Shown here: in pieces, positions 22,308 through 54,140 of the stretch
How positions within the stretch are numbered: position 1 is the stretch's first letter
How the letters are laid out: each line of letters begins with the position of its first letter
Notes under the pieces: generated by a model
The model's database searches: none
The model's input: only the letters and a program-made list of their open reading frames with translations
Told to the model about the DNA's origin: nothing
From: Oscillospiraceae bacterium
GTDB lineage: Bacteria > Bacillota > Clostridia > Oscillospirales > Oscillospiraceae
Direction: 5' to 3'
NCBI GenBank assembly: GCA_031261325.1
Contig: JAISKH010000077.1
Location: forward strand, 1-64,000
Length of the DNA: 64,000 nt
Made by a program: the position numbers and the translations under genes

Positions 22308-23012
22308 ATGGCATTACGAAACATTTTACCGGACAGCGAACCGACGCTCCGCAAGAGGAGCCGCGCGGTTACGGAATTTAACCCGCACCTGCACGAGCTG
22401 CTGGACGACATGCGCGAGACGCTTTTGCGCGCGAACGGCGTCGGGCTTGCCGCGCCGCAGGTCGGCGTATTGCGCCGCGCGGCTATCGTTGTGGACACAA
22501 ATTTGGAGGACAAGACCGTTGAGGAGCAGATTATCGAGCTGATTAACCCCGAGATAATCGCGTCCTCCGGCGAGCAAATAGGACCCGAGGGCTGCCTGTC
22601 GCTGCCGAACGTGTTCGGTTTGGTGACGCGCCCCGACCTCGTTAAAATCAAGGCGCAGGACCGCAACGGCGAGTGGTTTGAGGTGTTGGGCAAGGACCTC
22701 ACCGCGCGCGCGTTCTGCCACGAGGTTGACCACCTGAACGGCATTATATTCACCGACATCGCCGAGCGGATTCTGACGGAGGAAGAGCTTGAGGAGCTGC
22801 AACACGGCGACGACTGCGATTGTGACGATTGCGACGGCTGTGACGGGTGCGACGACGAGGACTGCGATGACGAGGACTGCGACGAGCATGAGCATGTACA
22901 CGAGCATGAACATGAGCACACGCATGACCATAACCATGACCACACACATGACCATGACCACCATGACCACCATGACCATGACCACCATGACCACGGGCAC
23001 ACGCACGGTTGA
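22308..23012 (+). CDS. def: Peptide deformylase with Cys/Asp/His-rich metal-binding tail
   Basis: A 234-residue peptide deformylase, which removes the N-formyl group from nascent proteins using Fe2+ or another divalent metal. The three catalytic motifs are intact: GVGLAAPQ (44-51), EGCLS (94-98) and HEVDH (138-142), so Cys96, His138 and His142 should bind the metal and Glu139 act as base. The catalytic domain ends near residue 165. It is followed by a tail of 69 residues with seven Cys among Asp (168-193), then 22 His alternating with Asp/Glu/Thr (194-234). The tail is far longer than normal family members carry and looks like a metal-storage or metal-capture module. ATG at 22308 has GGGAGGAG upstream. 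It overlaps fmt by 1 nt. Confidence 0.95.
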   Translation: MALRNILPDSEPTLRKRSRAVTEFNPHLHELLDDMRETLLRANGVGLAAPQVGVLRRAAIVVDTNLEDKTVEEQIIELINPEIIASSGEQIGPEGCLSLPNVFGLVTRPDLVKIKAQDRNGEWFEVLGKDLTARAFCHEVDHLNGIIFTDIAERILTEEELEELQHGDDCDCDDCDGCDGCDDEDCDDEDCDEHEHVHEHEHEHTHDHNHDHTHDHDHHDHHDHDHHDHGHTHG

Positions 23013-23914
23013 TGAGGGTTGTTTTCATGGGAACGCCCGACTTCGCGGTTCCGTCGCTTGAGCGTTTGTTTGCGGACGGGCACGAGGTTGTCGGGGTATT
23101 TACGAAAGCGGACAAACCCGTCGGGCGGGGAATGAAGCTCGCGCAATCGGCGGTCAAGGTCGCGCTCAACGGGCGTTCGCCGCTGTTCCAACCGGAGACG
23201 TTTAAGGACGGCGAAGCATTGAAGCTGTTGCGGGAGCTTGCGCCCGAGGTTATTGTCGTCGTGGCTTACGGCAAACTGCTGCCGCGCGAGGTTTTGGAAT
23301 TGCCGCCGTATGGCTGCGTGAATATCCACGGCTCGTTGCTGCCGCACTATCGCGGAGCCGCGCCGATACAGCGCGCCGTGCTGAACGGAGAAACGGTTAC
23401 GGGTGTTACGAGCATGTACATGTCCGAGGAATTGGACGCGGGAGACACGATTTTCACCGCCATCACGGCGATTGACGAGAACGAGACGGCGGGCGAGCTG
23501 TTTGACAGACTTGCGCCGCTCGGTGCGGAGCTGCTGTCAGAGACGCTGGCGGCGATTGAAGCGGACATCGCTGTCGGAATGCCGCAGGACGTGGAGCAGG
23601 CGACATACGCGCCGCCGCTGACGCGCGACATGGCGGTTATCGACTGGACAAAACCCGCGCGAGAGGTGCACAATCTGGTGCGCGGACTGAACCCGTGGCC
23701 GATTGCACGGGCGACGTTCGGCGGCACGGAATTTAAGGTATTTGCCACGGCGGTTGTCGAAGCGAGCGGCGCGGCGGGAACGATATTGGAAGCGGGCGAC
23801 GGGGGATTAACCGTCGCTTGCGGTGAGGGAGCGGTTATTATTAAAGAACTACAGGTACCCGGCGGGCGGCGCATGGCGGCGGGGGACTACTTGCGCGGTC
23901 ACGCAGTACTGTGA
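23012..23914 (+). CDS. fmt: Methionyl-tRNA formyltransferase
   Basis: A 300-residue enzyme that formylates initiator Met-tRNA with 10-formyl-THF. The N-terminal domain begins MRVVFMGTPDFAVP, with the catalytic HGSLLPHYRGAAPI motif near residues 107-120 and the downstream ELDAGD. The C-terminal tRNA-binding domain starts around 205. The start is the ATG at 23012 overlapping the def stop (TGATG); the TTG one codon earlier is less likely. Its pairing with def puts addition and removal of the formyl group in one transcript. Confidence 0.97.
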   Translation: MRVVFMGTPDFAVPSLERLFADGHEVVGVFTKADKPVGRGMKLAQSAVKVALNGRSPLFQPETFKDGEALKLLRELAPEVIVVVAYGKLLPREVLELPPYGCVNIHGSLLPHYRGAAPIQRAVLNGETVTGVTSMYMSEELDAGDTIFTAITAIDENETAGELFDRLAPLGAELLSETLAAIEADIAVGMPQDVEQATYAPPLTRDMAVIDWTKPAREVHNLVRGLNPWPIARATFGGTEFKVFATAVVEASGAAGTILEAGDGGLTVACGEGAVIIKELQVPGGRRMAAGDYLRGHAVL

Positions 23915-32714: not shown

Positions 32715-33503
32715 TTACAAACAATGAGCCGCCGCGTGCTTGGCGAACAGCTCGGCGATTGCGTCCAACTCGCCAAGCCCCGTCGTATCGACCTCCACCG
32801 CGTAGCCCGCCGAGCGGAGCTGTGAAGCCCAGCTGTCGGGAGACGCGCCGTTGAGGTCGTTTTTCACGTGCTCGCCCGCCGTTATCATCAGCGGCGCGAG
32901 ACGCACTCGGCGCACACTGTGCCGCGCAAGGCGGCTTACGATGTACGACAGCGCGGGGAAGCCCTCAACCGTGCCGATATACGCGCGCTCGCGGCCCATG
33001 GCGCGCAACGTGTTTTCGAGCTGTGAGTAAGCGGCGTTCATCGGGTGCTCGGAACCGTGTCCCATAAAGACGACCGCTTCGCTTTCTCGCGGCGGCATAC
33101 GCTCAGTCAGAGCGCGCGCGACCTCGGCGTAGTCCTCCGCGTCCCACAGGAGCGGCTTTCCGACGGCGAGCGACGCGAACTCCGCGCGGTACGGCGCGAG
33201 TTGTTCCGTCAGCTTGTCGAACTCGCTGCCCGCGATAACGTGCAGGCTTTGGAAAATCACGTCCTTGTAACCGCGCGCGAGTAATTGCTCCGCAAGCTCG
33301 GCGGGGTTCGGTATCGCAAGTCCCTCTTCGCGCAGAATACGACGCGCGACCATGCCGGAGGTGAAAGCGCGGTAAAAATCCCGCTCGGGAAACGCCGCCG
33401 TCAGAGCGCGCTCGACGTTCTCAATCGCGCGGCGCGCGTCCCTGTGCGTGGTGCCGAAGCTAACGGCGACAATCGCTTTTTTGGTAATCACATCACCGCT
33501 CAT
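32715..33503 (-). CDS. cbiK: Sirohydrochlorin cobaltochelatase CbiK
   Basis: A 262-residue class II chelatase that inserts Co2+ into sirohydrochlorin, the entry step of the anaerobic B12 route. The beginning AIVAVSFGTTHRDAR and the metal-site motifs GHGSEHP (about 146-152) and ITAGEHVKNDL near residue 210 are typical of CbiK. It is the last gene of the 22-gene operon. The ATG overlaps the cbiC stop by 4 nt. Confidence 0.93.
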   Translation of the reverse strand: MSGDVITKKAIVAVSFGTTHRDARRAIENVERALTAAFPERDFYRAFTSGMVARRILREEGLAIPNPAELAEQLLARGYKDVIFQSLHVIAGSEFDKLTEQLAPYRAEFASLAVGKPLLWDAEDYAEVARALTERMPPRESEAVVFMGHGSEHPMNAAYSQLENTLRAMGRERAYIGTVEGFPALSYIVSRLARHSVRRVRLAPLMITAGEHVKNDLNGASPDSWASQLRSAGYAVEVDTTGLGELDAIAELFAKHAAAHCL

Positions 33504-50290: not shown

Positions 50291-51436
50291 TCACTCTCCG
50301 ATTAGTTTTGAAATCACAGCCTGCGCACCGTTTGAGCGCGCAAGCTCGCCGTATTCGTTTGAGAACATGATGAATTCCGCGCCCGCCGCGCGCCGTTTCA
50401 GGTGATAGTCAATCCTGCCCGCAATTGACGCGATTACCGCCGCATCCAACCCGACGGCGCGCAATACCGCGACAGCCGCGTCCGCCGTGACGCAGCCGAA
50501 CACGGCGCGTACCGTCTCCGTCTCCGCTCCGCACAGCGCGGCGTGAGCGGCGAAAACCTCCGCACGCCCGTCCGCAACACGCGAGTGCGTGTAAAACACG
50601 CCCGCCGCCGTTTTGACGAGCTTGCCCGCGTGGGCAATGACGAGAATGTCCGAGAAGCCCTTATAGGTTGCGTAATCCAACGCCTCGCCGAGAAAATTCG
50701 AGTATTTTACGCTACGCGCGTCCGCAAACCCGAGCGTTTCCGCGAAGTCGCGCCCGTAGTTGCCGGGCGTGAGCAGTATTGCGCGCGCGACCGTCGCGCG
50801 GAGCGCGTCAATCTCAAGGCGCGTCGTGTCGATAATCGCGCGCTCGCTCATCGGCTCGACAATGCCGCTCGTGCCGAGAATTGATATGCCGCCGACTATG
50901 CCGAGCGAGGGGTTAAACGTCCGTGCCGCAACGGTTTCGCCGTTTGGCACCGATATGACCGCCCGCAGTCCGCCGCCGTGTCCGACCTCGGCGCAGACGG
51001 AGCGCAGTGCGTCCTCAATCATGCGGCGCGGCACGGGGTTAATCGCCGCCATGCCGACGGGTACGGACAACCCCGAGCGCGTCACGCGCCCCACGCCCTC
51101 GCCGCCGTCAACCTCAAACGCGGCGGAATGTGTCACTTCGGCGTGAATCAGCAGCCCGTGCGTCGCGTCGGGGTCGTCTCCGCCGTCCTTGCGCACGGCG
51201 CACCGCGCGGAGGTAGAAGTCAACGCGCTGTCCGCAACCTCCAGCAAAAGCTCGATACCCTTTGGCGTTGTGAGCCGAACCGCGTCGCTCCGCTGACCCG
51301 TCAGCAGCAGGAGGGCGGCGGCTTTCGCGGCGGCGGCGGCACAGCTGCCCGTCGTCCACCCGCGCCGCAGCTCGCGCCCGTCCTGCACAATCACCGCGTT
51401 CGACTGCAAGCCGAACGGTTCCCGCGTCTCACCCAT
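50291..51436 (-). CDS. cbiD: Cobalt-precorrin-5B C1-methyltransferase CbiD
   Basis: A 381-residue enzyme methylating C1 in the anaerobic route. The beginning LRRGWTTGSCAAAAAKAA, the GEGVGRVTRSGL segment, INPVPRRMI and the GTSGIVEPMSE motif identify it. I chose ATG at 51436, 8 nt inside cbiO, giving the usual length. CbiD has no counterpart in the aerobic pathway, so it marks the oxygen-independent route. Confidence 0.95.
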   Translation of the reverse strand: MGETREPFGLQSNAVIVQDGRELRRGWTTGSCAAAAAKAAALLLLTGQRSDAVRLTTPKGIELLLEVADSALTSTSARCAVRKDGGDDPDATHGLLIHAEVTHSAAFEVDGGEGVGRVTRSGLSVPVGMAAINPVPRRMIEDALRSVCAEVGHGGGLRAVISVPNGETVAARTFNPSLGIVGGISILGTSGIVEPMSERAIIDTTRLEIDALRATVARAILLTPGNYGRDFAETLGFADARSVKYSNFLGEALDYATYKGFSDILVIAHAGKLVKTAAGVFYTHSRVADGRAEVFAAHAALCGAETETVRAVFGCVTADAAVAVLRAVGLDAAVIASIAGRIDYHLKRRAAGAEFIMFSNEYGELARSNGAQAVISKLIGE

Positions 51437-52268
51437 CGCCGAGCACCCGCTTAAGCTCGCGCCGCGCGCCCGATATTGTCGCCGCGTCCGCGCCCACGTC
51501 AACGCCGTCCTCACGGCGAAGTATCTCCATCAGGTGCGCAATGCGCGGCAGGCGCAACCCGTTCTCCCGCAACAGTTCGGCACGCGCGAGAAGCTCCGCG
51601 ACTTCGCCCGAGAATACGGTTTGCCCGCGCCGCATCAGGTACGCGTGCTTGCAGTAAAGCGGCACAATGTCAATGTCGTGCGTCGCGAGAATCACCGTCA
51701 TGCCCAGCTTGTCCCGCAGCTCCGGCAGGAGGCGCATTATTTCTGCCGTTCCCTGCGGGTCAAGTCCCGCCGTCGGTTCGTCGAGTATCATAAGCTCCGC
51801 CTCCATTGCGAGCACGCCCGCAATCGCGACGCGCTTCTTCTGCCCGTGACTGAGCGCGTGCGTCGGGCGGTCGCGCAACTCCGTTACGCCCGTCTGCGCC
51901 ATCGCGCGCTCCACGCGTCGCGCCACCTCGTCGGGCGGCAAACCGAGGTTCACGGCTCCGAATGACACGTCGCTGTAAACGTCGGCAGAGAACAACTGGT
52001 CGTCGGGGTCTTGGAACACGATTCCGACGCGGCGGCGCAGCTCAAGCAGGCTCTTGCGGTCGTGTTTCAGCGCCGCGCCGTCAAGCAGCACCGCGCCCGA
52101 CTTTGGGCGCAGAATCCCGTTAAGGTGCAGGAACAGCGTTGACTTACCCGCGCCGTTCGCGCCGAGAAGCGCGGTTATCTCGCCGCGTTTGGGCGCGAAG
52201 TCCACGCCGTCAAGCGCGCGCTCGCCGCCCTCATATTCGTAAACCAATCCGCGCGTTTCAATAACCAT
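51429..52268 (-). CDS. cbiO: ECF cobalt transporter ATPase CbiO
   Basis: A 279-residue ABC ATPase energising cobalt uptake. Walker A GANGAGKST is at about 34-42, the Q-loop in FQDPDDQLF, the signature LSHGQKKRVA and Walker B LMILDEPTAGLDP follow. It is cytoplasmic and pairs with CbiQ. It overlaps cbiQ by 11 nt and cbiD by 8 nt. Confidence 0.95.
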   Translation of the reverse strand: MVIETRGLVYEYEGGERALDGVDFAPKRGEITALLGANGAGKSTLFLHLNGILRPKSGAVLLDGAALKHDRKSLLELRRRVGIVFQDPDDQLFSADVYSDVSFGAVNLGLPPDEVARRVERAMAQTGVTELRDRPTHALSHGQKKRVAIAGVLAMEAELMILDEPTAGLDPQGTAEIMRLLPELRDKLGMTVILATHDIDIVPLYCKHAYLMRRGQTVFSGEVAELLARAELLRENGLRLPRIAHLMEILRREDGVDVGADAATISGARRELKRVLGDG

Positions 52269-53034
52269 ACTTCACCCCGAATAGTAATGCCGCAACCTGT
52301 CCGCACAACACAAGCGCGCCGAACGCGAGTACGTGCCGTCCGCTCTCATAGCTCTGCGCCGCCGTGACAATCGCGCCGTCATACCCGCGCGCCTCAAGCG
52401 CCGTATACACGCGGTCGGACTTGCGGTAGGCGCGGACGAACACCATGGACGCGAGCGTCCCCGTTGAACGCATGGACGTGCGCGCGTCGCGATAACCGAG
52501 CCGCGCGGACTGCGCCGTTTTAATCCGCGCCGACGTGTCCGACAGGACGAATATAAAGCGGTAAATCATGTCCATAAGCTCGATAAACAGCCGCGGGACG
52601 CGCAGACGCGCAAGCGCGCGGGAAAAGTCCGTCATCGGCGTCGTCATCGTGAAAAAGTACACGCACGCGACGATGGACACAGCCTTCGCGAACACGGCGA
52701 GACTTTGCAGCAGCGACTGCGCGGTGACGCCGTACCACGCGCCGCCGACGCGCAATCCGAGCAGCAATTCGCCACGCGCGTTCGCGCCGACCGCCATTGT
52801 CAGAACGGCAATCAGCAGGAAGCCCGTCGGCACGCGCAACATACGCGTGAGCGCGCGCGGTCGTGTCCCGCCAAGCGCGACGTTCAGCGCGCACATCACG
52901 GCGAACGTGAACACGCTCACGGCGACGCTCCCCGCCGCAAGGCTCACGGCGGCGGAAACCGCCATGACCGCAAGCTTTGCGAGCGGGTTAACGCGCCGCA
53001 GACGCGAGGAATAGGCGTAGCGGTCAGTTCCCAA
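52258..53034 (-). CDS. cbiQ: ECF cobalt transporter transmembrane subunit CbiQ
   Basis: A 258-residue energy-coupling membrane protein with about five helices. The family motif is in the RVNPLAKLAVM start, and the two Ala-Arg-Gly coupling helices appear as RALARLRVPR (~122) and ALEARGYDG (~215). The start is a TTG at 53034 overlapping cbiN by 11 nt, with GGGAG upstream; no better start lies downstream. Confidence 0.93.
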   Translation of the reverse strand: MGTDRYAYSSRLRRVNPLAKLAVMAVSAAVSLAAGSVAVSVFTFAVMCALNVALGGTRPRALTRMLRVPTGFLLIAVLTMAVGANARGELLLGLRVGGAWYGVTAQSLLQSLAVFAKAVSIVACVYFFTMTTPMTDFSRALARLRVPRLFIELMDMIYRFIFVLSDTSARIKTAQSARLGYRDARTSMRSTGTLASMVFVRAYRKSDRVYTALEARGYDGAIVTAAQSYESGRHVLAFGALVLCGQVAALLFGVKYGY

Positions 53035-53344
53035 GCGCGCCGCTCCCGACGGTCGTCTCCGCCGCTTTTGGCTTCGCCGTCATTCTGCCGAGAATGAAAA
53101 ACACGATGCCGGAGCCTGTTGCGGCTTGCAATGAGAACAGCAGGGACGCGATTTCGCCGCTCGCGGGTTCGATAATCGGCTCAAACCACGGCTCATACTC
53201 GGGGGCAATCTCGACGATTACCGCGCCCGCTTGGTCGTCCGCGCCGCCAAATTCCGAGCCGCGCGCGTAGTACAGCGGGAACACCGCGAGCGCGATTACG
53301 ATAAGTACAAGGATTACGTTTTTCTTCCATATGTTCTTCTTCAT
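53024..53344 (-). CDS. cbiN: Cobalt transport protein CbiN
   Basis: A 106-residue two-helix protein needed with CbiM for cobalt binding. Helix one is at about residues 9-27, then an extracytoplasmic loop with GGADDQAGAVIVEIAPEYEPWF, and helix two at about 72-88. GGAGG precedes the ATG by 5 nt. The C-terminal tail after the second helix is longer than usual. Confidence 0.93.
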   Translation of the reverse strand: MKKNIWKKNVILVLIVIALAVFPLYYARGSEFGGADDQAGAVIVEIAPEYEPWFEPIIEPASGEIASLLFSLQAATGSGIVFFILGRMTAKPKAAETTVGSGALGN

Positions 53345-53353
53345 GCTATCCTC

Positions 53354-54076
53354 CTATATGACCTTTAATGCCTGCAACTGCTCGCCGTTGTACTTCTCCA
53401 GCACGTTAAAGACGACGACCGTGAGAATGCCCTCCGCCACAGCGAGCGGCAGCTGCGTCAGCGCGAAAATCGACATGAACTTGCCGAGCGAGAACAGGAA
53501 GCTCTCCCCGGGGAACGCCGCGCTCAATTGAAACGATGTGGTGACATACGTCATCAGGTCGCCCAGAAACGCCGCGACGAACACGGAAACCGCCGCCGGA
53601 GCCTTTGCGCGCTTTAGCAGTCTGTAAGCGAAGTACGAGACGAACGGACCGACAATCGCCATCGAGAACACGTTTGCGCCCAGCGTCGTCAGCCCGCCGT
53701 GAGCCAAGAGCAACGCTTGGAACAGCAGGACAATCGTGCCGAGCACAGCCATAGGCGCGGCTCCGAACAGTATCGCGCCCAGCCCGACGCCGGTCGGGTG
53801 CGAGCACGAACCTGTCACCGACGGGATTTTCAGCGCGGACAGCACGAAAGCGAACGCGCCCGCCATTGCGAGCAGAACCTTGACTTTGGGGTCCAGCTCG
53901 ACCTTTTTGCGTATCGCGAGCAGTCCCGCCGCAATGAACGGCAGGGCGACCGCGCCCCACGCGACAGCCCATCTTCCGGGCAGGAAGCCCTCCGCAATAT
54001 GCATCGCGGACGCGGAAGAGGTTGCAAGCCACAGCGCGAGGGGGAGGAACGACAGGGTAATCAGGGTCTTTTTCAC
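53354..54076 (-). CDS. cbiM: Cobalt-binding ECF component CbiM
   Basis: A 240-residue substrate-binding membrane subunit. A cleavable-type N-terminus ends in SASA just before MHIAEGFLP; the new N-terminal Met-His binds cobalt in the family. [14 protein letters not shown] carries further conserved His/Cys. I chose GTG at 54076, since AAGGAG lies 8 nt upstream; the GTG at 54085 falls on top of that site and is unlikely. First gene of the 22-gene operon. Confidence 0.94.
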
Positions 54077-54140
54077 AGCGCACACTCCTTAAAAATAATT
54101 CGGAAAATTGTGTTTCATTGCACGCTAAAGACCCGACGAA

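Follow-up and report, generated by a model that had tools for sequence, protein, structure and literature searches.

A peptide deformylase with a putative metal-binding cysteine- and histidine-rich tail in an Oscillospiraceae bacterium

The peptide deformylase gene (def) of an Oscillospiraceae bacterium (GCA_031261325.1, contig JAISKH010000077.1) encodes a protein of 234 residues, in which a complete deformylase core is continued in frame by a tail rich in Cys, His and Asp/Glu. Judged from composition alone, this tail very probably binds metal. Our preferred reading, to which we give a probability of roughly 0.45, is that the tail acts as an in-cis metal buffer (for Ni, Zn or Co) on a zinc-sensitive iron enzyme.

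Deformylase core and reading frame of the tail

In the 64,000-nucleotide stretch of DNA analysed here (the window), def starts with an ATG preceded by a GGAGG-type ribosome site and lies in an ordinary gene run, gmk-priA-def-fmt-rsmB-rlmN (Table 1). By every sequence feature checked, its product is a member of the peptide deformylase family. The Pfam profile PF01327 matched residues 3-152 (numbered without the Met) with an E value of 1.9e-42 and 145 bits (cut-off 22.8), and the NCBIfam profile TIGR00079 scored 141.5 (cut-off 103.95). Motif consensus and metal ligands were taken as given in PMC5591237, and 53 aligned sequences were used to judge invariance. Motif I (GxGxAAxQ) reads GVGLAAPQ at residues 44-51, with its positions invariant; motif II (EGCxS, containing the metal-binding Cys) reads EGCLS at residues 94-98, with C96 invariant; and motif III (HExDHxxG, containing the two metal-binding His) reads HEVDHLNG at residues 138-145, with H138, E139, H142 and G145 invariant. 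The C-terminal helix follows at residues 158-167. The closest solved structure by sequence, 1ws0, is also a deformylase, and the core reached a pLDDT of 97-99 in the AlphaFold model. These features predict that the encoded deformylase is probably a working one. Furthermore, the genome search returned a single deformylase match, and def was thus detected as single-copy in an assembly of 97 contigs rated 89 percent complete, an incompleteness that leaves room for a second copy.

Table 1 Features of the def region and of the cobalt-related genes in the window
Feature	Position	Strand	Basis
def, whole gene	22308..23012	+	
Deformylase core of def, residues 1-166	22308..22805	+	PF01327, TIGR00079, invariant columns, model
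Tail Cys/Asp block, residues 167-193, 7 Cys at 170-191	22806..22886	+	codon table
Tail His/Asp/Glu block, residues 194-234, 22 His	22887..23009	+	codon table; tandem repeats
def stop codon TGA, one-base overlap with the fmt ATG	23010..23012	+	sequence
fmt, methionyl-tRNA formyltransferase, next gene in the same run	23012..23914	+	TIGR00460 above cut-off
CbiK cobaltochelatase	32715..33503	-	
CbiMNQO cobalt uptake genes	51429..54085	-	

The tail comprises residues 167-234 (68 residues, or 69 if H166 is counted) and contains 7 Cys (170-191), 22 His (194-233) and 29 Asp/Glu (22 Asp and 7 Glu). Given 5 His per 166 residues in the core, chance alone would put about 2 in the tail, as against the 22 that are there. 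The first-pass annotation had described a complete deformylase domain with an in-frame tail, and its coordinates and residue counts agree with ours; its count of seven Cys was also right, but it placed the start of the Cys block at residue 168, while the cysteines begin at 170. According to the AlphaFold model the tail is disordered, having no secondary structure and a pLDDT of 51-61 (about 51-54 in the Cys block). In composition and model, therefore, it is a Cys/His-rich disordered segment of the kind looked for in a metal-buffering tail.

Across the tail, stops are numerous in both other same-strand frames, and the def frame stays open for 68 codons before closing in the junction TGATG (23010-23014), where it overlaps fmt by one base. 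Short-tailed relatives mostly have a def/fmt junction with a 1- or 4-base overlap, and because their junction is of the same type, the tail is bounded by the helix on one side and by a conserved gene junction on the other. The in-frame position and the kept fmt overlap led us to reject a run-through of the spacer and a separate ORF. A frameshift before the tail was likewise rejected, given the closed alternative frames, the strongly non-random choice of residues and the kept overlap; both a frameshift and relatives with the tail as a separate ORF had been raised at first pass, and neither was found. The assembly is fragmented and the tract is of low complexity, which could suggest that an assembly or frameshift error created the tail. 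The same frame, residue and junction evidence makes such an artefact highly improbable, and as the longest exact DNA repeat within the tract is 24 nt, within reach of ordinary reads, its collapse or false joining is unlikely.

Distribution and growth of the tail

The tail appears, from sequence comparison, to be restricted to one species. The genus includes 11 sister species, of which 10 gave a deformylase match; one of these matches is a contig-end fragment without its C-terminus, and none of the ten aligned past roughly residue 176 of the def product. Where the tails of sisters and other relatives could be read, they mostly measured 15-50 residues and were acidic, with no more than one Cys and no more than three His; a few were longer, but these were not His/Cys-rich. 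In the family, 383 genomes gave a match, and among the matches listed none apart from the genome's own extended past residue 194; the match that reached this residue (G257) proved on reading to have an acidic tail. Among those listed for 283 class genomes, none went past residue 182. Both results rest on best matches, and a His-rich tail should have lifted the score of weaker ones. A species-wide contig scan also found no such tail in the readable C-termini among the matches listed. The conservation looked for in a metal-buffering tail was thus absent from the sisters with a readable def and from the listed family and class matches. The tail looks like a recent species-specific addition. Our search of open-licence papers found no description of a deformylase with a His-rich tail, in line with the earlier impression that this architecture is undescribed for Def.

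To ask whether the DNA is more repetitive than the protein requires, codons were permuted among positions that encode the same residue. The His block showed an excess of internal DNA repeats (p 0.0005-0.0035), with tandem repeats of 6, 9 and 24 nt, whereas repeats in the Cys block were not above the requirement of the protein sequence; the His tract of the CooJ-like gene described below gave a weak excess (p 0.07-0.14). The earlier proposal of growth by slippage is accordingly upheld for the His block and not for the Cys block. In addition, the tail uses 13 CAT and 9 CAC codons for His, compared with 7 CAT and 44 CAC in neighbouring genes (Fisher p 1.5e-4). Because of the excess repeats and the shifted His codons, the His block likely grew by recent tandem expansion or duplication.

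These observations raise the possibility that a disordered acidic tail was simply lengthened by replication slippage into a low-complexity arm that does no harm and binds metal only by coincidence. The repeats and codon counts of the His block fit such neutral expansion, as do the mostly acidic and variable tails that follow the helix in relatives. Nevertheless, recent slippage alone leaves the alternating Cys-Asp of the Cys block unexplained, and the reading frame and the fmt overlap have been kept. The His loops of CobW proteins in the family also mix CAT and CAC, so the codon bias is not specific to neutral growth and is by itself no argument against function. We regard neutral expansion as unlikely, though a real rival; together with a general store of metal, discussed below, it is a close competitor of the in-cis buffer.

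Candidate roles of the tail

Short His-Asp/Glu tract patterns were present in 267 of 400 family genomes. Among the carriers sampled, from which some antisense or chance-frame matches were left out, those with a known domain were mostly metal-handling proteins, namely CobW GTPases (7 of the 10 proteins in one sample), LarC (nickel insertion), a CsoR-type metal repressor and a P-type ATPase, in keeping with the initial remark that similar stretches are found in nickel and cobalt chaperones; the others were one methyltransferase and several proteins without a Pfam family. The genome itself has few other clear His tracts. One is the HDHEH tract at the N-terminus of a protein of 109 residues that has no Pfam or NCBIfam family (L211:1380-1706, G000 C16). 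Its gene belongs to the CODH/ACS operon, where it is directly followed by those for CooT, a CooC-like ATPase and acetyl-CoA synthase. In position and make-up, this is probably a nickel protein of the CooJ-like kind (cf. PMC6006190).

Further tracts were noted in passing. In this genome, a short CobW-type GTPase adjoins a protein that has a His-rich N-terminus and no Pfam family (L212:3444-4575, G000 C40, about 106.4-107.6 kb of the contig), and the same pairing occurs in three sisters, G002, G007 and G010 (L105, L108 and L109). A predicted membrane protein of the same genome, with no Pfam match, has an HDHDH loop between hydrophobic segments (L176:982-1689, G000 C1). In a methyltransferase-domain protein (L148:736-1755), a long His-rich tract is followed by a short end without a Pfam family, which by eye resembles the end of the CooJ-like protein.

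A link between def and the cobalt operon, suggested at first pass, was dropped, since the CbiMNQO genes (51.4-54.1 kb) are about 28 kb away on the opposite strand and def belongs to an ordinary gene run. Probable cobalamin synthesis genes lie between CbiK and CbiMNQO.

Deformylase is a mononuclear iron enzyme to which zinc binds more tightly, lowering its rate, and it is mismetallated in zinc-stressed cells (PMC7683392). If the tail is an in-cis buffer, the disordered Cys/His/Asp arm would most likely hold several ions of divalent transition metals (Ni, Zn or Co). As a local sink, it would capture excess zinc or nickel before these could take the place of iron at the Cys96/His138/His142 site; it may also keep metal ready for reloading that site. 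We infer all three elements of this proposal, i.e., metal binding, the identity of the metal and the benefit to the enzyme. It is favoured by an in-frame tail with the def/fmt overlap kept, a confidently modelled core and a single detected def, as well as by the tracts on metal-handling proteins in the family and the CooJ-like tract in the same genome. Several points argue against it. In Salmonella, over-expression of PDF eased zinc stress through restored activity and not through sequestration (PMC7683392). The tail is confined to one species, so selection is not visible as conservation, and the sisters live without it; furthermore, the repeats fit slippage with no need of a function. A His arm might instead draw off iron or supply the wrong metal.

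Similar arms were found on another protein. Trigger factor, a chaperone, docks at the exit tunnel of the ribosome. In the sister species G001 the whole protein is available (L137), and a His-Asp rich tract (HDHDHSGHDHSDHDHGDHEHEE) follows its folded domain. A similar His tract occurs in trigger factor of G009 (L107), a contig-end fragment with 64 percent identity to the end of the G001 protein over 42 residues, and trigger factor of G044, from the same order, has a His-rich tract too (L134/L103). The window species' own trigger factor (L128) has no His tract. E. coli deformylase uses its C-terminal helix to bind beside the ribosomal exit tunnel (PMC5591237), and the def tail begins just past the helix that matches this ribosome-binding helix, a position that would place the tail near the exit tunnel. 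The parallel between the two proteins is suggestive and is no proof. One might go further and propose that exit-tunnel proteins of this genus repeatedly gain His arms, which would buffer metal at the point where newly made metalloproteins appear and would protect deformylation or aid early metal loading, but we consider this a long shot.

Alternatively, the tail could be a general store or sink of metal that does nothing in particular for the deformylase site and is carried by an essential protein associated with the ribosome. HspA offers a precedent, its tail being used in the maturation of hydrogenase and in resistance to nickel (PMC4671568). With like tracts on trigger factor in G001, G009 and G044, the carrier seems interchangeable, and the genome has both nickel users (the acetyl-CoA synthase operon) and cobalt uptake genes. 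On the other hand, deformylase is usually a low-abundance protein, which would keep the storage capacity small, and a His tract is missing from the trigger factor of the species that has the tail. We find such a store doubtful.

Deformylase, which trims newly made proteins, is an essential enzyme and a target for drugs, and its mismetallation by zinc is documented. With a built-in metal arm, this natural variant would show directly whether a mononuclear iron enzyme can be protected by a buffer tethered to it, and it also bears on whether factors near the ribosomal exit serve as metal carriers.

Comparison with known metal-binding tails

In its core and C-terminal helix the def product resembles other bacterial deformylases (PF01327/TIGR00079), whereas the related deformylases compared stop soon after the helix or have a short, mostly acidic tail, with no Cys/His arm. 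Stand-alone nickel proteins provide a likeness for the arm itself. CooJ has a His-rich terminal tract, and the Rhodospirillum protein, with 16 His in its C-terminal domain, binds four nickel (PMC6006190); CooJ is an accessory protein standing alone, while the def tract is fused to an essential enzyme.

Closer in principle are housekeeping proteins with added tails. Helicobacter pylori HspA has a lineage-specific His/Cys-rich C-terminal extension that sequesters nickel (PMC4671568), but its carrier is a GroES co-chaperonin and not a metalloenzyme. The HspA tail is also a conserved feature of H. pylori that is missing outside Helicobacter, whereas the def tail, a putative binder, was found in a single species. 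SlyD likewise has a His-rich C-terminal nickel-binding domain that is present in some lineages and missing from others (PMC11198818), on an FKBP prolyl isomerase chaperone instead of a deformylase. PF01327 was the sole domain found in the def protein, with neither the GroES/Cpn10 fold nor the FKBP/insert-in-flap arrangement. If our reading is right, the def tail may act as the tails of HspA and SlyD do without belonging to either family, and the principle that they embody would extend to the very metalloenzyme that is at risk.
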